In this document: positions 3,206-17,534 of the stretch, in pieces
Layout of the letters: each line of letters begins with the position of its first letter
Position numbering within the stretch: the first letter of the stretch is position 1
Notes under the pieces: generated by a model
The model's input: only the letters and a program-made list of their open reading frames with translations
Database searches by the model: none
Told to the model about the DNA's origin: nothing
Made by a program: the position numbers and the translations under genes
Assembly (NCBI GenBank): GCA_902779845.1
Contig: CACZCZ010000014.1
Location: forward strand, 1-64,000
Direction: 5' to 3'
DNA: 64,000 nucleotides
DNA from: an uncultured Bacteroidales bacterium
GTDB taxonomy: Bacteria; Bacteroidota; Bacteroidia; Bacteroidales; Bacteroidaceae

Positions 3206-3298
3206 TAATTTGACAATTTGACGATTTCACGATTTGACAATTGATGGGGCTCATGGGGCTCATAGGGCCTATTAGGCTCATGGGCCCTATTGGGCTCA
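3206..3298. repeat. Tandem low-complexity arrays between OPT gene and pta
   Basis: Two degenerate arrays lie back to back. Bases 3206-3245 hold 8-9 bp units (ATTTGACA/ATTTGACG), and 3246-3298 hold about six units of GGGCTCAT/GGCCTATT type. They end exactly at the stop codon of the transporter gene. Confidence 0.75.
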
Positions 3299-5326
3299 TG
3301 AGACCTTTGCTTTCATGCTGGCCTTGACCACATAGAGGATGAGGAGGGCATAGGCGATGAGGGAGCATAGCTCGGAGAGGGGGTTGGCGAGCCAAGCCTC
3401 GTTGATGGGGTTGAAGCCCACGAAACGGAGGAGGGCGGAGACGACACCCATGAGGGCACCACCGGCGATGAAGCCGCTGGCAAGGAGGGTGCCGCGCTCA
3501 CCACGGGCTGCGTTGAGGGCGGTGTCCGTGGAGCGTGTGGTGACGTACCAGTTGATGGCACCGCCGACTACGAGGGGTACGTTGAGTTCCAAGGGGATGA
3601 ACATGCCGAGGGCGAAGGCGAGGGCCGGCACCCCACACCAGGTAAGGATAAGAGCGATGACAGCACCGATGGCATAGAGAATCCACGGAGCCCCTACCCC
3701 ACTCATCAACGGCTCGATGACCGCCGCCATGGCGTTGGCCTGAGGCGCTGCCAACTCACCCGACGCGAAGTCGTAGGTGGCATTCAGCAAGATCATCACG
3801 CCGCCGACAGTGGCTGCCGACACGAGCACGCCCAGGAACTTCCACGTCTCCTGCTTGGCAGGCGTGGTGCCCAGCCAGTAGCCTATCTTCAGATCGGTGA
3901 TGAACGAACCCGCCACGGAGAGCGCCGTGCAGACCACACCACCCATGATCAAAGCAGCGACCATGCCGCCCGTGCCGCTGAGGCCAACAGCCACCATCAC
4001 CACAGAGGCAAGGATGAGGGTCATCAGCGTCATTCCGGACACGGGATTCGAGCCCACGATGGCAATGGCATTGGCCGCCACCGTGGTGAAGAGGAAGGCA
4101 ATGACAGCCACCAGGAGGATGCCCACGATGGCAAAGAGGAGGTTGCCCTGCATCACACCCAACCAGAAGAAGAGGAACGTGACGACGATGGTGAGGAGTG
4201 CGCCGCCGGCGATGATCTTCATGGGCAGGTCGCGCTGTGTGCGCTGCACCGACTCAGCGTGCTGTACGGAATCCACGCCCCGCACCAGCTTCACGGCTTG
4301 CACGATGATGGAACGGCTCTTCCAGATGCCGATGATGCCAGCCATGGCGATACCGCCGATGCCGATGCTCTTGGCATAGGCACGGAAGATCTGCTCGGGG
4401 CTCATCTCGCCAACAGGCGTGGTGATGCTGGGGTCCCATTGGTTCAGGACGGTGTCGGGGAACAGCAATGCCATGCCCGGCACAATGAGCCACCAGACAG
4501 CCAGCGAACCGAAGGTGATGATGGAGGCATATTTCAGGCCTACGATGTAGCCGAGACCGACGACGGCAGCGCCCGTGTTGACCTTAAAGACCAGTTTGGC
4601 CTTGTCAGCCAAGGTCTCGCCCCAACCGACAACACGCGAGGTGAAGTTCTCATTCCACCAGCCGAAGGTAGCCACGATGAAGTCATAGAGTCCACCCACG
4701 AGTCCGGCAATGAGCAGGGGCTTGGCTTGGTCGCCGCCCTTCTGTCCGCTCACCAGCACCTGTGTCGTGGCGGTGGCTTCGGGGAAGGGGTACTTGCCAT
4801 GCATCTCTTTCACAAAATACTTGCGGAAGGGAATCATGAACAGAATGCCCAGGATGCCGCCGAGCAGCGAGCTGAGGAAGATGCTCATGAAGTCGGCTGT
4901 CATATCGGGGTACTTGGCTTGCAGAATATACAGCGCCGGCAAGGTGAAGATGGCACCTGCCACCACACTGCCAGAGCAAGCACCGATGCTCTGAATGATG
5001 ACATTCTCGCCCAATGCCCCTTTGCGCTTGGCCACCGTGGAGACACCCACGGCGATGATGGCAATAGGGATGGCGGCCTCGAAGACCTGTCCCACCTTCA
5101 GTCCAAGGTACGCGGCGGCGGCCGAGAAGACCACAGCCATGATGATACCCCAGGCTACGCTCCACACATTGACTTCAGCATAGCTGCGGTCAGGGCTCAT
5201 CAGCGGTTCATACTGCTCGCCCGGCTGCAGTTCGCGGAAGGCGTTGTCGGGAAGAGAAGACCCTCCCCCCTGCCCCTCCCTTGCAGGGAGGGGAGTAGTA
5301 TCCTTTGTCATTTGGTTGTTACTCAT
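3296..5326 (-). CDS. OPT-family oligopeptide transporter
   Basis: A 676-residue polytopic membrane protein with many hydrophobic segments of 18-22 residues spread from about residue 55 to the end. It carries the family's KYPFPEATATTQVL motif near residue 175 and the GGALMGVV segment near the C-terminus. It belongs to the OPT/YSL superfamily, proton-coupled symporters that import oligopeptides or metal chelates across the inner membrane. The substrate cannot be told from sequence. Oddly, about residues 9-23 (TTPLPAREGQGGGSS) are the translation of a 41-bp palindromic repeat that also lies upstream of the gene, so the cytoplasmic N-tail has been remodelled. Confidence 0.9.
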   Translation of the reverse strand: MSNNQMTKDTTPLPAREGQGGGSSLPDNAFRELQPGEQYEPLMSPDRSYAEVNVWSVAWGIIMAVVFSAAAAYLGLKVGQVFEAAIPIAIIAVGVSTVAKRKGALGENVIIQSIGACSGSVVAGAIFTLPALYILQAKYPDMTADFMSIFLSSLLGGILGILFMIPFRKYFVKEMHGKYPFPEATATTQVLVSGQKGGDQAKPLLIAGLVGGLYDFIVATFGWWNENFTSRVVGWGETLADKAKLVFKVNTGAAVVGLGYIVGLKYASIITFGSLAVWWLIVPGMALLFPDTVLNQWDPSITTPVGEMSPEQIFRAYAKSIGIGGIAMAGIIGIWKSRSIIVQAVKLVRGVDSVQHAESVQRTQRDLPMKIIAGGALLTIVVTFLFFWLGVMQGNLLFAIVGILLVAVIAFLFTTVAANAIAIVGSNPVSGMTLMTLILASVVMVAVGLSGTGGMVAALIMGGVVCTALSVAGSFITDLKIGYWLGTTPAKQETWKFLGVLVSAATVGGVMILLNATYDFASGELAAPQANAMAAVIEPLMSGVGAPWILYAIGAVIALILTWCGVPALAFALGMFIPLELNVPLVVGGAINWYVTTRSTDTALNAARGERGTLLASGFIAGGALMGVVSALLRFVGFNPINEAWLANPLSELCSLIAYALLILYVVKASMKAKVS
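5259..5299 (-). repeat. Palindromic 41-bp repeat, copy inside the OPT gene
   Basis: On the minus strand it reads ACTACTCCCCTCCC-TGCAA-GGGAGGGGCAGGG and so on to GAGGGTC, with a stem of CCCTCCC/GGGAGGG. It matches the copy at 5419-5458 base for base except in the loop, and it is translated in frame. Confidence 0.85.
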
Positions 5327-5343
5327 TGTTTTTATTTTTTTCG

Positions 5344-5402
5344 TTATGTTGAGATTTCGTTATTGCGTTATTACGTTATTTCTTTATTTCGTTATTTCGA
5401 AG
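5344..5402. repeat. Tandem TTATTTCG-type array
   Basis: Roughly seven 8-9 bp units of the form cgttattgcg/cgttatttc lie just upstream of the OPT gene start. A related array in the other sense (aacgaaataacg) occurs at 15838-15895. Confidence 0.7.
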
Positions 5403-5418
5403 TTCATTATCTTTAGTA

Positions 5419-5458
5419 ACTACTCCCCTCCCTAAAGGGAGGGGCAGGGGGGAGGGTC
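5419..5458 (+). repeat. Palindromic 41-bp repeat, intergenic copy
   Basis: The same element as at 5259-5299, in inverted orientation, with loop TAAA in place of TGCAA. It is followed by short direct repeats gtccgtgggg(t/a)g up to 5489. Together the two copies frame the OPT start codon. Confidence 0.85.
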
Positions 5459-5489
5459 CGTGGGGTGAGTCCGTGGGGAGGGTCCCCCC

Positions 5490-12268: not shown

Positions 12269-13773
12269 ACATCACCAGCATACTAAGACCCGTCTTCGAG
12301 CGACGCTATCGCCAAATCGAGCGCTATGCCACTGAGGCCGAAGCGCTGCAGCGCGGTGTTCTGGCGCGCCTCATCGAGACCGGCTGCTCCACGGAATGGG
12401 GCCACCGCCACCATTTCAGCAACATACAGTCCTACGAGCAGTTCGCCGCCGCCACCAGCATCACCAGCTACGACGACCTCAAGAGCGACATCGACCGTAT
12501 GCGACATGGCGAGAAAGGCATCCTGTGGCCCGACATGGTGCGCTGGTATGCCAAATCCAGCGGCACCACCAGCGACAAGAGCAAGTTCATCCCCGTGTCG
12601 CAACAGGGCCTGCAGGACATCCACTACGCCGGCGGTCGCGATGCCGTGGTTCTCTATTTGCACAACAACCCCCAGAGCCGCTTCTTCGCTGGCCGCGGCC
12701 TCATCCTCGGCGGCTCACACTCCCCCAACTACAACGTCAACCACTCGCTGGTCGGTGACCTCAGCGCCATCCTCATCGAGAACATCAACCCGCTGGTCAA
12801 CTTCATCCGCGTCCCCAGCAAGAAGACAGCTCTGCTCTCCGACTTCGAGCAGAAGCGCGACCGCCTCGCCCGCGAGGCCCTGCACCGCAATGTCACCAAC
12901 CTCAGCGGTGTGCCCTCATGGATGCTGTCGGTGCTCACTCGTGTGCTGGAGCTCTCGGGCAAGGACTCGCTGCTCGATGTGTGGCCCAACCTCGAAGTCT
13001 TCTTCCACGGCGGCGTCGCCTTCACCCCCTATCGCGAGCAGTACCGCCGCATCATCCCCAGCGACCAGATGCACTACGAGGAGACCTACAACGCCTCGGA
13101 GGGCTTCTTCGGCCTGCAGAGCGACCTCTCCGACCCCGCGCTGCTGCTGATGATTGACTACGGCATCTTCTATGAGTTCATCCCCCTCGACGAGCTCGAC
13201 AAGGAGCACCCCACCGTCGTGCCCCTCTGGGGCGTGGAGCCCGGCCGCAACTACGCCATGGTCATCACCACCTGCAACGGCCTCTGGCGCTACCTCATCG
13301 GCGACACCGTGCGCTTCACCAACACCTCCCCCTACAAGTTCGTCATCACCGGTCGCACGAAGTTCTTCATCAACGCTTTCGGCGAGGAGCTCATCGTGGA
13401 CAACGCCGAGCACGGCCTTGCCGAAGCCTGCCGCCAGACGGGTGCCCAGGTGCTGGAGTACACCGCCGCCCCCATCTTCATGGACGAGAACGGACACTGC
13501 CGCCACCAGTGGCTCATCGAGTTCTCGCAGCCACCGGCCGACACCGAGGCCTTTGCCGAAGCGCTGGACAAAGCGCTGCAGCGCCAGAACTCCGACTACG
13601 AGGCCAAGCGCTTCAAGAACATCACCCTGCAGCGCTTGCAGCTCGTCACCGCCCGCCCAGGCCTCTTCAACGACTGGCTCCGCAGCAAGGGCAAACTGGG
13701 CGGACAGCACAAAGTGCCCCGCCTCTGCAACAACCGCGACATCATCGACCAGATGCTGGCGCTGAATAGCTAA
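12265..13773 (+). CDS. GH3 (auxin-responsive promoter) family adenylating protein
   Basis: This 502-residue protein belongs to the GH3 branch of the ANL adenylating superfamily. It has an ATP-binding AKSSGTTSDKSKFIPVS region near residue 95, EETYNASEGFFG near residue 275, and a C-terminal lobe with ITGRTKFFINAFGEEL. In plants, GH3 enzymes link amino acids to acyl acids. The bacterial substrate is unknown. This gene commonly follows rnc in Bacteroidales. The ATG at 12265 overlaps the rnc stop (ATGA); open sequence further upstream in this frame is the shadow of rnc. Confidence 0.88.
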   Translation: MNITSILRPVFERRYRQIERYATEAEALQRGVLARLIETGCSTEWGHRHHFSNIQSYEQFAAATSITSYDDLKSDIDRMRHGEKGILWPDMVRWYAKSSGTTSDKSKFIPVSQQGLQDIHYAGGRDAVVLYLHNNPQSRFFAGRGLILGGSHSPNYNVNHSLVGDLSAILIENINPLVNFIRVPSKKTALLSDFEQKRDRLAREALHRNVTNLSGVPSWMLSVLTRVLELSGKDSLLDVWPNLEVFFHGGVAFTPYREQYRRIIPSDQMHYEETYNASEGFFGLQSDLSDPALLLMIDYGIFYEFIPLDELDKEHPTVVPLWGVEPGRNYAMVITTCNGLWRYLIGDTVRFTNTSPYKFVITGRTKFFINAFGEELIVDNAEHGLAEACRQTGAQVLEYTAAPIFMDENGHCRHQWLIEFSQPPADTEAFAEALDKALQRQNSDYEAKRFKNITLQRLQLVTARPGLFNDWLRSKGKLGGQHKVPRLCNNRDIIDQMLALNS

Positions 13774-13920
13774 ATATAAAATACAAATTATAAAATATAA
13801 GATATAATGGGGCTCTTTAGAAGCATATTGAGGCAATTCGCAAGGGTGACCACCCTCCCCCTCACCGGGGGAGCGAGGAGGGGCTCCTTATTTTATATTT
13901 TATATTTCATATTTATTCTT
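13774..13920 (+). repeat. AT-rich array plus GC-rich palindromic repeat, start of the Ig-like gene
   Basis: An AT-rich array (ataaaatata-type units) at 13774-13806 leads into the ATG. The palindromic element CTCCCCCTCAC-CGGGGGAG with flanks (13850-13888) follows inside the gene, and a second AT-rich array (ttttatatttta-type, 13890-13916) follows that. The last two are translated. Confidence 0.75.
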
Positions 13921-15825
13921 TCTTTCGCTTGCGCCTGCGCCAACATCGGCTCCCCGGACGGCGGCCCCTTCGACGAGACACCGCCGCGCGTCATCAAGAG
14001 CTACCCCGACAACCAGGCTGTCAACGCCAACAGGCGCAACATCCGCATCAACTTCAACGAGTACATCAAGATCGAGAACGCCAGCGAGAAGGTCGTCGTC
14101 TCCCCACCGCAGTCCGAAGTCCCCAACGTGCGCGCCATCGGCAAACACGTGAGCATCGAGCTCTTCGACACCCTGCGCCCCAACACCACCTACACCATTG
14201 ATTTCGCCGATGCCATCGTGGACAACAACGAGGGCAACCCCATGGGCAACTACACCTTCTCCTTCTCCACAGGCGATGCCATCGACACCATGGAGGTCTC
14301 CGGCTACGCCCTCAACGCCGCCGACCTGGAGCCCGTGAAAGGCATCCTCGTGGGCCTCTACCTCGTCGGCGAGGACGGCACCGTGCCCGACAGCGTCTTC
14401 CGCACACGGCCCTTCGACCGTGTCGCCCGCACCAACGGCAGCGGCCGCTTCGTCATCAAGGGCGTCGCCTCCGGACAGCGCTACCGTGCCTTCGCCCTGC
14501 AGGACATGGACGGCAACTTCCGCTTCACGCAGAAGAACGAGGCCATCGGCATCGACACCGCCATCTTCGATGTCTTCGCGCGCCCCGACTTCCGTCTGGA
14601 CACCATCTGGCGCGACTCCACACACTACGACAGCATCCACCCCGTGCGCTACACCCACTTCTTCCCCGATGACATCGTCCTGCGCACCTTCCTCGAAGAG
14701 GGGCAGGAGCGCCACCGCCTGAAGGAGCTGCGCGAGGTCCCCGACCACTTCACAATGTTCTTCACCGCCCCCGGCGACTCAGTGCCCTACATCCGTGGCC
14801 TCAGCTTCGAGGGCGACGGCGGCTTCATCGTGGAACCCTCCGAGAAGCTCGACACCATCACCTACTGGATTCCCGACACCACCATCGCCTATGCCGACAC
14901 CCTCGCCTTCGAGTTCTACTTCCAGGAACACGACACGCTGGGACAACTCGTCTGGCACATGGACACCGTGGAGCTCATCCCCAAGACCACACGCGCCAAG
15001 CAACTCAAAGAGCTGCAGCGCAAGACCGAGGAATGGGAGAAGGAACAGAAGAAGAAGCGTAAGCAGTACCCCAACCTGCCCCCCGAGGAGAACCCGCATC
15101 TCATCACCTTCCTCAGCGCCGACCTCAAACCCACCGGTTCCATCGCCCCCAACCAGAGCCCCATCCTCACCTTCTCCGAGCCCGCACCGCTGCCCGACAG
15201 CAGCGCCATGCGCCTGCTGCTGAAGGTCGATAGCCTGTGGAAGCCCGAGCCCTTCGACATCTTCGCCCTCCCCAACGACCCACGGCGCTACCAACTGCTG
15301 GCCGACTGGGAGCCCGGACAGCAGTACCGCTTCGAGATCGACAGCGCCACCGTGGCTGGCGCCCTCGGACACACCAACAAACCCGTCAAACAGGACCTGC
15401 GCATCCGTAAGGAAGAGGAGTTTGGCACCATCTTCATCCACGTCATCGTCCCCGACACTGGCGTCATCGTGCAACTCCTCAACGCCAGCGACAAGCCCGT
15501 CGCCACCGAGCGCGCCAACGCCGAAGGACGCGCCGAGTTCTACTACGTCAAGCCCGGAGCCTACTACCTCCGCTGCTTCATCGATCGCAACGGCGACGGC
15601 GTCTGGACCACCGGCGACTACGATGCCGGCATCCCGCCCGAAGAGACCTTCTACTTCCCGCAACCTCTCAACGTGAAAGCACTCTGGGAGCTCAACCAGG
15701 ACTGGAGCCCGCGCAGCATCCCCTACATGAAGCAGAAGCCCGCTAAGATTACCAAGCAGAAACCTGACAAGGAAAAGCAAATCAAACAACGCAACCGCGA
15801 ACGCGACGCAGCAAAAGGAAAATGA
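13807..15825 (+). CDS. Ig-like domain (SbsA/Big_5 type) envelope lipoprotein
   Basis: A 672-residue exported protein of a conserved Bacteroidales family whose mature part begins CANIGSPDGGPFDETPPRV. The first cysteine cluster (ACACAN, about residue 40) is the likely lipidation site. An SbsA-type Ig-like domain (about 47-140) follows, then Cna-B-like beta regions and a Lys/Glu-rich segment near 400-420. The function is unknown. Normally a short lipoprotein signal precedes CANIGSPDGGP. Here residues 1-28 (ending TTLPLTGGARRGS) come from a palindromic repeat, and the hydrophobic core LFYILYFIFILSF is encoded by an AT-rich tandem array. The tail is very basic. Confidence 0.8.
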   Translation: MGLFRSILRQFARVTTLPLTGGARRGSLFYILYFIFILSFACACANIGSPDGGPFDETPPRVIKSYPDNQAVNANRRNIRINFNEYIKIENASEKVVVSPPQSEVPNVRAIGKHVSIELFDTLRPNTTYTIDFADAIVDNNEGNPMGNYTFSFSTGDAIDTMEVSGYALNAADLEPVKGILVGLYLVGEDGTVPDSVFRTRPFDRVARTNGSGRFVIKGVASGQRYRAFALQDMDGNFRFTQKNEAIGIDTAIFDVFARPDFRLDTIWRDSTHYDSIHPVRYTHFFPDDIVLRTFLEEGQERHRLKELREVPDHFTMFFTAPGDSVPYIRGLSFEGDGGFIVEPSEKLDTITYWIPDTTIAYADTLAFEFYFQEHDTLGQLVWHMDTVELIPKTTRAKQLKELQRKTEEWEKEQKKKRKQYPNLPPEENPHLITFLSADLKPTGSIAPNQSPILTFSEPAPLPDSSAMRLLLKVDSLWKPEPFDIFALPNDPRRYQLLADWEPGQQYRFEIDSATVAGALGHTNKPVKQDLRIRKEEEFGTIFIHVIVPDTGVIVQLLNASDKPVATERANAEGRAEFYYVKPGAYYLRCFIDRNGDGVWTTGDYDAGIPPEETFYFPQPLNVKALWELNQDWSPRSIPYMKQKPAKITKQKPDKEKQIKQRNRERDAAKGK

Positions 15826-15837
15826 AGAGTGAATTAA

Positions 15838-15900
15838 ACTTTCGTCATAACGAAATGTCGTAATAACTAAATAACGAAATAACGTCATAACGAAAGCGTC
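15838..15900. repeat. AACGAAATAACG tandem array
   Basis: About six degenerate 8-9 bp units (aacgaaatgtcg, aacgaaataacg, cataacgaaag) lie between the two exported-protein genes. Confidence 0.7.
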
Positions 15901-15916
15901 TCAATCAAGAAAAAAA

Positions 15917-16873
15917 ATGAAGGGCCTCTTAACGACCATGCTGCGCCAGTTCGCAAAGGTAACCACTCTCCCCCTCACAGGGGGAGTGAGGAGGGGGTCT
16001 TCCTCATTCGTCATTCGTCATTCGTCATCCCTCATTCGTCATTCCTCATTAGTAACTCTTATTCTTCATTCTTCATTCTTCATTCTTCATTCCTCACTCC
16101 CCGCCAGCGCCCAGTGCCCCCTTCCCAACACCGCCTTCGGGCCCGGCGAGAGCCTCGACTACCAGCTCTACTTCAACTGGAAATTCATCTGGCTGAAGGC
16201 TGGCACCGCCAACCTCCGCATCGACGCCGGACGCTACAACGGCCAGGACATCCTGCGAGCCCGTCTGCTCACACGCGGCAACAAGCGCACCGACCGCTTC
16301 TTCATGATGCGCGACACCATCACCAGCTACATCACCCCCGACCTCGTACCCCTCTACTACCGCAAGGGCGCCCTCGAAGGCAAGCGCCACAACATCGACG
16401 AGGTGTGGTACACCTACCCCGAAGGCCGCACACACCTCCGCCAGCGCTATGTCGATTACAAGGACGTGGAGTACAAGAAGGAACTCGATGCCGACGAATG
16501 CTACTACGACATGCTCAGCATGCTCCTGCGTGCCCGCTCCTTCGACGCCAAGGACATGCACGAGGGGCAGCGCTTCCGCTTCAAGATGGCCCACGGCAGC
16601 CGCGAGAGCGATGAAGTCTTTGTCTATCGCGGCAAGAAAGAAATCAAGATGGAGCAGACACGCACCACTTACCGCTGCCTCGTCTTCTCCTTTGTGGAGT
16701 ACAACAAGGACAAGAAGCGCGAACAGGAAGTCATCACCTTCTACATCACCGACGATGACAACCACATCCCCGTCCGCCTCGACATGTTCCTGCGTTTCGG
16801 CACCGCTAAAGCCTTCCTCTCCAGCGCTACCCCACCCCGCCATCCACAGACCTCCATCGTGAGCAAGAAATAG
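15917..16873 (+). CDS. DUF3108 exported protein with repeat-derived leader
   Basis: A 318-residue protein. The mature part from about residue 66 (CPLPNTAFGPGESLDYQLYF) is a DUF3108 domain, a predicted beta-rich periplasmic or outer-membrane-associated fold of unknown function. The leader is remarkable. Residues 1-30 (MKGLLTTMLRQFAKVTTLPL, then TGGVRRGSS) parallel the leader of the previous gene, and residues 31-60 (repeating VIRHSS, LILHSS, FILHSS) are translated from a CATTCGT/CATTCTT array, ending in a plausible signal peptidase site (LPASAQ). A start after the array leaves no signal peptide, so the repeat appears to be used. Confidence 0.8.
   Translation: MKGLLTTMLRQFAKVTTLPLTGGVRRGSSSFVIRHSSSLIRHSSLVTLILHSSFFILHSSLPASAQCPLPNTAFGPGESLDYQLYFNWKFIWLKAGTANLRIDAGRYNGQDILRARLLTRGNKRTDRFFMMRDTITSYITPDLVPLYYRKGALEGKRHNIDEVWYTYPEGRTHLRQRYVDYKDVEYKKELDADECYYDMLSMLLRARSFDAKDMHEGQRFRFKMAHGSRESDEVFVYRGKKEIKMEQTRTTYRCLVFSFVEYNKDKKREQEVITFYITDDDNHIPVRLDMFLRFGTAKAFLSSATPPRHPQTSIVSKK
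15950..16100 (+). repeat. Palindromic element plus CATTCNT array inside the DUF3108 gene
   Basis: The palindromic element (CTCCCCCTCACAGGGGGAG core, about 15966-15985, with flanks to 16000) is followed by roughly twelve 7-mers of CATTCGT, then CATTCTT type, to about 16097. All of it is translated in frame. Confidence 0.85.
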
Positions 16874-16874
16874 C

Positions 16875-17534
16875 TCACCCCAGCAGCGCTGCCACTTCGC
16901 AGAGTTCGTTGTACCACGCCTCGCCGAAGCGGCGAATCAGGGGCTCACGCAGGAAGCGGTAGAGCGGGAGATTCAGCTCCTGCCCGCGCTTACGTGCTCC
17001 CTCGCAGATAGCCCAGCGATGGTAGTTGAGGCCCACGAGGCCGCCGCTGAACCGCTTCTCGCGGATGGGATAGAGCGCACACGAGATGGGCTTCATAAAG
17101 CGACTCTTCCCCGCCCTACATGCCGCCTCCAGCGCACACAGGCAACAACTTTTGTCCGTTGGCTCTTGGCTCTTAGCTCTTGACTCTTGGCCGTTGGCTC
17201 CTGAAGCCTGGAACTTGGAACCTGAAACTTGTTCGTAGAACGTAAACACACAATCCTTGCCGTTGACGATGCTGGTGACCAAGTCGCCCTCCACATCCGT
17301 GTAGGCGACGCCCTGCCTGTCCACCACGCTCTGTGCCGTGGCCGACATATACGGCCACGCCGCATCCAGCGAAGCCTCAATTTCACCGATTTCATCGAGG
17401 GTGACCGGTGCTCCCGCATCACCCTCCACGCAGCATGCGCCGCCGCAAGCATCGAGGTCGCAGCAGAACCGCTCTGTCAGAATCTGTGTGCTAATCAGCA
17501 CACCACCGACTTCTAATATAGGAATTTGGGACAT
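16875..17534 (-). CDS. DUF3109 (YkgJ-like) protein with an internal repeat insertion
   Basis: A 219-residue cytoplasmic protein with the cysteine-rich N-terminal cluster FCCDLDACGGACCVEGDAG and the downstream KPISCALYPIR segment, as expected for a DUF3109 or CxxCxxCC-type metal-binding protein of unknown role. About 30 residues (97-126, QVSGSKFQASGANGQE onwards) interrupt the usual spacing between FTFYE and CALEAACRAGK. They are encoded by a tandem array and look like an insertion. Confidence 0.85.
   Translation of the reverse strand: MSQIPILEVGGVLISTQILTERFCCDLDACGGACCVEGDAGAPVTLDEIGEIEASLDAAWPYMSATAQSVVDRQGVAYTDVEGDLVTSIVNGKDCVFTFYEQVSGSKFQASGANGQESRAKSQEPTDKSCCLCALEAACRAGKSRFMKPISCALYPIREKRFSGGLVGLNYHRWAICEGARKRGQELNLPLYRFLREPLIRRFGEAWYNELCEVAALLG
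17145..17232. repeat. TTGGCTC/TTGGAAC array inside the DUF3109 gene
   Basis: About eleven degenerate 7-mers (ttggctc, ttagctc, ttgactc, then ttggaac, ttgaaac) are translated in frame as the extra peptide of the DUF3109 protein. Confidence 0.75.

Follow-up and report, generated by a model that had tools for sequence, protein, structure and literature searches.

How do two neighbouring genes that encode unrelated proteins come to share an N-terminal leader, and why is that leader built from repeats? The question is raised by genes 1 and 2 in a stretch of 64,000 nucleotides (hereafter the window) from an uncultured Bacteroidales bacterium (contig CACZCZ010000014.1 of assembly GCA_902779845.1). 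Intergenic repeats, namely palindromes and tandem arrays of period 7 or 8, have probably been captured in frame, and repeatedly so, as the n- and h-regions of Sec signal peptides. The anatomy of these repeat-built leaders, their recurrence, their turnover among orthologs and their strand asymmetry are directly visible in the DNA. Translation from the first ATG or GTG, and export by the resulting peptides, are what we infer from it.

The window is part of contig C14 in G000, a genome of 2.92 Mb and 85.92% completeness. Counts for this genome refer to a sample of 858,658 bp from 41 sources (29% of the genome) with 562 genes called by a custom gene caller. Signal peptides were called by a custom rule-based predictor, and N-termini without a predicted signal peptide were compared over their first 30 codons. 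Relatives of the DUF3108 gene (gene 2) come from metagenome-assembled genomes of Bacteroidaceae and Prevotellaceae, frequently with ruminant source names. Among the matches listed, the nearest comes from roe deer rumen (isolate RGIG4948, 80% identity in the DUF3108 gene); its genome is referred to as the sister (G139). The sister and the related genome G140 were used for comparison, in addition to an ortholog set of 80 named loci. An Rfam scan of the window at the gathering threshold returned two tRNAs and nothing else.

Two unrelated genes with parallel leaders

Signal peptides of the Sec and lipoprotein types consist of a positively charged n-region, a hydrophobic h-region and a cleavage site or lipobox. 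At the two genes, the following features were found (all on the + strand):

13807..15825, +, gene 1, predicted lipoprotein with a Big_5 domain (open reading frame, Pfam)
13772..13807, +, A-rich period-7 array (AAATATA) directly 5' of the gene 1 start (array scans)
13807..13851, +, gene 1 leader n-region MGLFRSILRQFARVT, with the ATG at 13807
13852..13883, +, gene 1 GC palindrome ACCCTCCCCCTCACCGGGGGAGCGAGGAGGGG, reading TLPLTGGARRG
13889..13921, +, gene 1 T-rich period-7 array, coding for most of the h-region LFYILYFIFILSF
15917..16873, +, gene 2, predicted exported DUF3108 protein (open reading frame, Pfam)
15847..15895, +, period-8 array ATAACGAA 5' of gene 2
15917..15964, +, gene 2 leader n-region MKGLLTTMLRQFAKVT, with the ATG at 15917
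15965..15996, +, gene 2 GC palindrome ACTCTCCCCCTCACAGGGGGAGTGAGGAGGGG, reading TLPLTGGVRRG
16000..16096, +, gene 2 period-7 array (ATTCGTC / ATTCTTC; scan unit TTCGTCA), coding for SSFVIRHSS...LILHSSFFILHSS

The N-terminus of gene 1 (13807-15825) reads MGLFRSILRQFARVTTLPLTGGARRGS and that of gene 2 (15917-16873) reads MKGLLTTMLRQFAKVTTLPLTGGVRRGS. A preliminary description of this DNA had seen unrelated neighbours with parallel leaders, and this is borne out by mature parts of different families (Big_5 and DUF3108) behind leaders that form a repeat family (D2) with 76% DNA identity over 93 nt (13794-13886 vs 15907-15999). As it had also stated, the leaders differ chiefly at third codon positions: of the 18 nucleotide differences in 27 aligned codons, 2, 5 and 11 fall on codon positions 1, 2 and 3. 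Its third observation, that a tandem array encodes each hydrophobic core, was reproduced by the tandem-array scan, which places a T-rich period-7 array just 3' of the GC palindrome in both genes (13889-13914 with the unit TATTTTA, and 16000-16096). The rule-based predictor recognised a charged n-region, an h-region and a cleavage site or lipobox in both proteins; among the listed orthologs the lipobox cysteine of gene 1 is kept and the AQ-like junction of gene 2 is kept in most. The predicted export route would be ordinary Sec.

Repeats had further been proposed to supply the start codon. This applies to gene 1, whose start codon falls within the upstream A-rich array in a looser array scan, and to the LptC gene discussed below, which also starts within an array, but not to gene 2. 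A start of translation 3' of the repeats is unlikely, as there is no in-frame ATG, GTG or TTG between the array and the mature part of either gene, and the array is the sole hydrophobic stretch ahead of the lipobox cysteine in gene 1. Alternatively, translation could begin inside the leader, so that LRQFA would remain partly untranslated. In-frame candidates are a TTG (L8) and a GTG (V14) in gene 1 and a second ATG (M8) and the palindrome GTG (V24) in gene 2, and the custom gene caller did place the gene 1 start at the GTG at 13846. Nevertheless, the 15 codons before the palindrome are conserved in frame across six leaders, and the first ATG has an A at position -3 in both genes, which makes such an internal start very improbable. 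According to excerpts of Baez 2019 (PMC6847099), Bacteroidetes lack Shine-Dalgarno sequences and tune initiation by mRNA structure and an A at -3.

Arrays inside predicted signal peptides

The proposal that repeats were captured as secretion signals gains support from an excess of arrays in predicted signal peptides. In G000, an array was found in 16/176 predicted signal peptides vs 8/386 other N-termini (P = 4e-4), and the two relatives showed the same pattern, with 10/156 vs 5/319 in G139 (P = 0.009) and 5/89 vs 0/160 in G140 (P = 0.005). An ortholog test that does not depend on the predictor points in the same direction. Here, arrays overlapped the 25 codons immediately ahead of the mature part in 10/70 orthologs of gene 1 and 6/79 of gene 2, loci with too little flank or an unsuitable alignment start being left out, and in 0/149 of each of the control stretches (mature codons 50-75 and 150-175). 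Signal peptides with an array are also longer (median 36.5 residues in 16 genes vs 21 residues in 160 genes).

The orientation of the arrays differs between the two sides of the start codon. When the three genome samples were pooled, 93 of the 5' arrays at starts were A-rich, 22 T-rich and 125 neutral, while the arrays within signal peptides comprised 1 A-rich, 20 T-rich and 2 neutral cases (P = 2e-11 for the difference in orientation). Stop codons in all three frames were present on the T-rich strand of 170/463 arrays and on the A-rich strand of 280/463.

Several points weigh against the capture of repeats as signal peptides. The excess of T-rich arrays is partly circular, because hydrophobicity is what defines a signal peptide. 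By eye, the predictor made false calls (L070:15232, L078:8174, L251:12478, L277:14002) and missed the likely signal peptides of L104:14454 (MKRSFIHTVRKQFVKSKSHFSLFTLSFFTLLLSSC) and L265:18884; with these errors reassigned, the excess became 15/175 vs 9/387 in G000 (P = 0.0013), stayed at 10/156 vs 5/319 in G139, and became 4/88 vs 1/161 in G140 (P = 0.054). GC palindromes alone were not significantly enriched in signal peptides (7/176 vs 6/386, P = 0.13). The species in the ortholog test are related, so that its counts are not independent, and two of the ten gene 1 orthologs with an array (L171, L180) have a stop codon within these 25 codons, so the array there must lie at or before the start.

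It is also possible, though we regard it as rather unlikely, that signal peptides and other N-termini are simply harmless landing sites, where the repeats contribute nothing and an ordinary duplication accounts for the leader. Such tolerance would agree with arrays lying within other genes, with palindromes heading proteins that show no sign of being exported, and with the low signal-peptide identity between genes of the window species and their sister orthologs when either carries an array (median 0.18 in 5 pairs vs 0.45 in the 26 array-free pairs, P = 0.026). It does not account well for gene 1, LptC and a NigD-like protein, in which the array is the only h-region and therefore must act if the protein is exported. 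Elsewhere, the signal peptide of L084:1663 (MKSERMKSEKSYRAYRSHRAYRSYKLYFSLFTLSLFTLLVSC) seems to be made of arrays throughout.

Arrays and palindromes across the genome

Period-7 and period-8 arrays are common in this genome. In a strict scan of the sample, period 7 was represented by 107 arrays and period 8 by 45, compared to 0-7 for each of the periods 4, 5, 6, 10, 11, 12 and 13, and 19 for period 9; the longer periods 14, 15 and 16 gave 58, 12 and 16 arrays. When 10 of the 41 sources were shuffled, the same scan found zero arrays. After merging, 147 strict arrays remained. Most of them (99) separate genes that run in tandem; divergent genes account for 12 and convergent genes for 5, while 19 are located inside called genes and 12 at the edge of a stretch. 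Arrays are located at the start of 84 of the 562 genes, either over the start codon (38 genes) or ending at most 15 nt before it (46 genes), and can therefore supply the start codon of exported-type and other genes alike. An A at -3 was present in 50/84 genes with an array at the start vs 197/478 other genes. Elsewhere in the window, a TTGGCTC heptamer array (17146-17204) lies within a minus-strand open reading frame (16875-17534), and at L105:9297 a gene with a TATTTTA array as its signal peptide has a 5' region filled by a long CCCTCAA/CCCTTAA period-7 array.

GC palindromes numbered 159 in the G000 sample vs 24 in order-2 Markov sequences, and 92 of the 159 lie in called genes, the reading frame having been examined for N-terminal ones only. 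Arrays are found within 60 nt of 21 palindromes (about 9.5 expected). The palindrome type of the window is present in 22/139 genomes of the genus. Exported N-termini tend to read palindromes in a basic frame (GGARRGS, GRGRG) and others in a neutral frame (REGQGGGS, GRAGGES), although the cases are few. Neutral-frame palindromes were seen, for example, at the N-termini of two cytosolic-looking proteins, by eye epimerase-like and tryptophanyl-tRNA-synthetase-like (L083:5574, L085:12746). At L053 (G000:C33 near 4678), at least two palindromes form an apparent in-frame linker between carbamoyl-phosphate-synthase-like halves (by eye). In the window, two GC palindromes (5262-5460) flank and enter the start of a minus-strand gene (3296-5326, MSNNQMTKDTTPLPAREGQGGGSSLPDN...), and a period-8 array separates this start from the upstream palindrome.

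Complementarity around the start codon

In gene 1, the upstream array (13772-13804) is an inverted copy of the array in the signal peptide (13889-13921), with 79% complementarity. This raises the possibility of control at the RNA level, in which inverted arrays would be kept as a start-codon hairpin that tunes translation, or as a site of phase variation by 7-nt slippage, and peptide coding would be a by-product. To some extent the 17 array-bearing signal-peptide genes (the 16 predicted plus L104) agree with this. In eight of them, gene 1 included, the signal-peptide array has a close complement in the upstream region of its own gene, which few other genes could match (no more than 7 of 175 other upstream regions scored as high), whereas 10/159 array-less signal-peptide genes reach their top 5%. 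Predicted mRNA hairpins with at least 35 cross-paired positions were likewise found in 8/17 array genes vs 7/159 controls (P = 6e-6), and the folding energy was lower than in controls (mean z of -1.66 in the 17 genes vs -0.51 in 60 controls), with very stable predicted hairpins in L084:1663 (z -5.8) and L104:14454 (z -5.2). However, gene 2 shows no such complementarity (28/175 other regions score as high), gene 1 reaches a z of only -1.3, and A-rich upstream arrays pair with T-rich coding arrays partly through their composition. RNA control as the main explanation is thus doubtful.

Perhaps the A-rich array, start codon, FAKVTT n-region, palindrome and T-rich array even form one self-complementary cassette that spreads between genes and rebuilds signal peptides, its hairpin coupling translation to export. 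In such a cassette, the inverted copy of an A-rich (Lys- and Asn-coding) array would automatically code for a hydrophobic segment. We put this forward tentatively, as an unlikely extension.

On the reading that we favour, palindromes and degenerate period-7 and period-8 arrays, which are common between genes in this lineage of Bacteroidales, have repeatedly come to lie in frame as signal peptides of exported proteins. A palindrome in its basic open frame (LPLTGGxRRGS) would form the end of the n-region, and an array in the T-rich orientation, being rich in Phe, Leu, Ile and Ser codons, would form the h-region. Arrays in the A-rich orientation would stay 5' of the start codon or provide it (MKNK, MKSEK, MINNK). 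Copies of a homologous leader, xLLxxILRxFAKVTTLPL, would additionally have passed between envelope proteins that are not related to one another. Such captures would be tolerated because, in signal peptides, Sec reads charge and hydrophobicity rather than an exact sequence.

The leader beyond the two genes

A profile built from five leaders was used to trace the leader further. With the protein itself excluded from the profile, it matched a NigD-like lipoprotein at C24 (MITDLIRYIVRHFAKVTTLPL...RRGSYFSLFTLYFSLFTFTAC, E = 3.7e-7), and the second half of the leader matched the LptC gene at C37 (E = 2.9e-5). Over 44 residues, the leader of this LptC shares 72% identity with the one heading an 822-residue open frame at C15. 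A sister protein that resembles the C15 protein at its mature start (L260) bears a leader of equal length and similar type, with a weak score (E = 0.2). In genome G019, an unclassified lipoprotein frame carries a shorter leader of the same kind. A DUF6452 lipoprotein at C26 (L103:13683, MSHRLSFLKEHFTKVITLSLTRGAWGC) was not retained as a member, its resemblance being by eye only (E = 2.9 with a profile excluding it). The suspicion of a recurring leader type is therefore supported for a few further proteins.

The sister carries the leader on both orthologous genes, with an altered palindrome and no array in gene 1, and with a different palindrome and a different array in gene 2. A duplication confined to the two neighbours is ruled out by these sister leaders and by the other loci that bear the leader. 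The leader probably predates the split of the two species, since both have it on both genes.

As protein, the leader behaves as weakly constrained. Six aligned n-regions of 15 codons gave a ratio of nonsynonymous to synonymous differences (pN/pS) of 0.47 in frame vs 1.63 and 1.38 in the other frames, a contrast that also speaks against a leader that is merely tolerated; 4/600 column shuffles were as low in frame. Between individual leaders, a third-position excess was found for gene 1 vs gene 2 of the window (P = 0.012) and for gene 1 of the window vs gene 2 of the sister (P = 0.028). The remaining pairs count on the other side, with no excess for the two gene 2 leaders (P = 0.09), the two gene 1 leaders (P = 0.23), or gene 2 of the window vs gene 1 of the sister (P = 0.74). 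The constraint on protein suggested in the preliminary description is thus modest, being apparent in the pooled ratio and in two of five pairs.

Is the leader equally common in non-coding DNA? For the LRQFA half this seems not to be the case: with at most one mismatch, the pattern CAATTCG..AAGGTGACC occurs at four places in the genome, three of which are leaders and the fourth of which (C5:18033) lies mid-way in a 599-residue open frame, and the leader was accordingly rejected as a plain dispersed DNA repeat. With up to three mismatches there are 111 + 118 places vs 87 + 71 for a reversed-pattern control. The palindrome half does occur without the LRQFA half between genes, for example at C9:11924 (by eye). 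Across 61 genomes of the genus, at least 43 have a profile match at E ≤ 1, and among the matches listed, those elsewhere show mostly the palindrome half. Six stretches inspected from this list included no leader of an exported protein; in one of them (L396) the match lies at the N-terminus of a membrane-transporter-like protein.

Turnover of the LptC leader

In the sister, the gene upstream of LptC ends with TAATG and thereby overlaps the start of a compact predicted signal peptide, MKKSLFIIIAFFTLFAC. From the stop of the upstream gene to the cysteine codon there are 50 nt in the sister vs 216 nt in the window genome, where the interval consists of an A-rich array, a GTG start, the leader, a palindrome and a T-rich array. 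The LptC of genome G041 has an array-built, partly similar leader without a palindrome. Turnover of the LptC leader between relatives is clear. A clean gain in the window species was considered and is not concluded, because the G041 leader is array-built while that of the sister is compact.

Implications and comparison with known systems

If repeats are indeed captured in this way, non-coding repeats can be a source for the origin and turnover of signal peptides, which are little conserved in sequence, and the reason would be that the reverse complement of A-rich repeats codes for a hydrophobic segment. A testable set is provided by the repeat-built leaders of LptC and other conserved envelope proteins. 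They would also be a warning that start sites and signal peptides may be mis-annotated in such genomes. A literature search, with thin coverage of subscription journals, found no paper on repeat-built bacterial signal peptides.

Repetitive extragenic palindromic (REP) elements are dispersed GC-rich hairpins that are paired with a REP-associated tyrosine transposase (RAYT). The palindromes described here resemble them as GC-rich dispersed hairpins. As a candidate for their mobiliser, the genome has only one weak and partial RAYT match (Y1_Tnp, 24.1 bits vs a cut-off of 23). Rickettsia palindromic elements are short dispersed palindromes inserted in frame in unrelated open reading frames. The presence of dispersed palindromes in called genes is similar in arrangement, but the palindromes here are found at N-termini and signal peptides, some of them adjoining tandem arrays.

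The closest parallel for the arrays comes from TAACTGA heptamer direct repeats, which are described in excerpts of MacGregor 2015 (PMC4679880) for marine Beggiatoaceae, some Cyanobacteria and five Bacteroidetes. According to these excerpts, the repeats lie mostly just 5' of start codons and, inside proteins, chiefly near the ends, and one orientation is stopped in all frames while the reverse is stop-free. The arrays in this genome are likewise 7-nt direct repeats near starts, but in place of one exact heptamer their units are many and degenerate (AAATATA, ATTCGTC, GTGAAAA and others). None of the array units in the window (AAATATA, TATTTTA, TTCGTCA and ATAACGAA) is TAACTGA, the rest of the genome not having been searched for it. 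A key difference is that the open orientation here forms the h-region of predicted signal peptides, a term absent from the main text of PMC4679880. Repeats captured as signal peptides, together with a duplicated leader, are thus a real and recurrent feature of this genome, and one related to known repeat behaviour.

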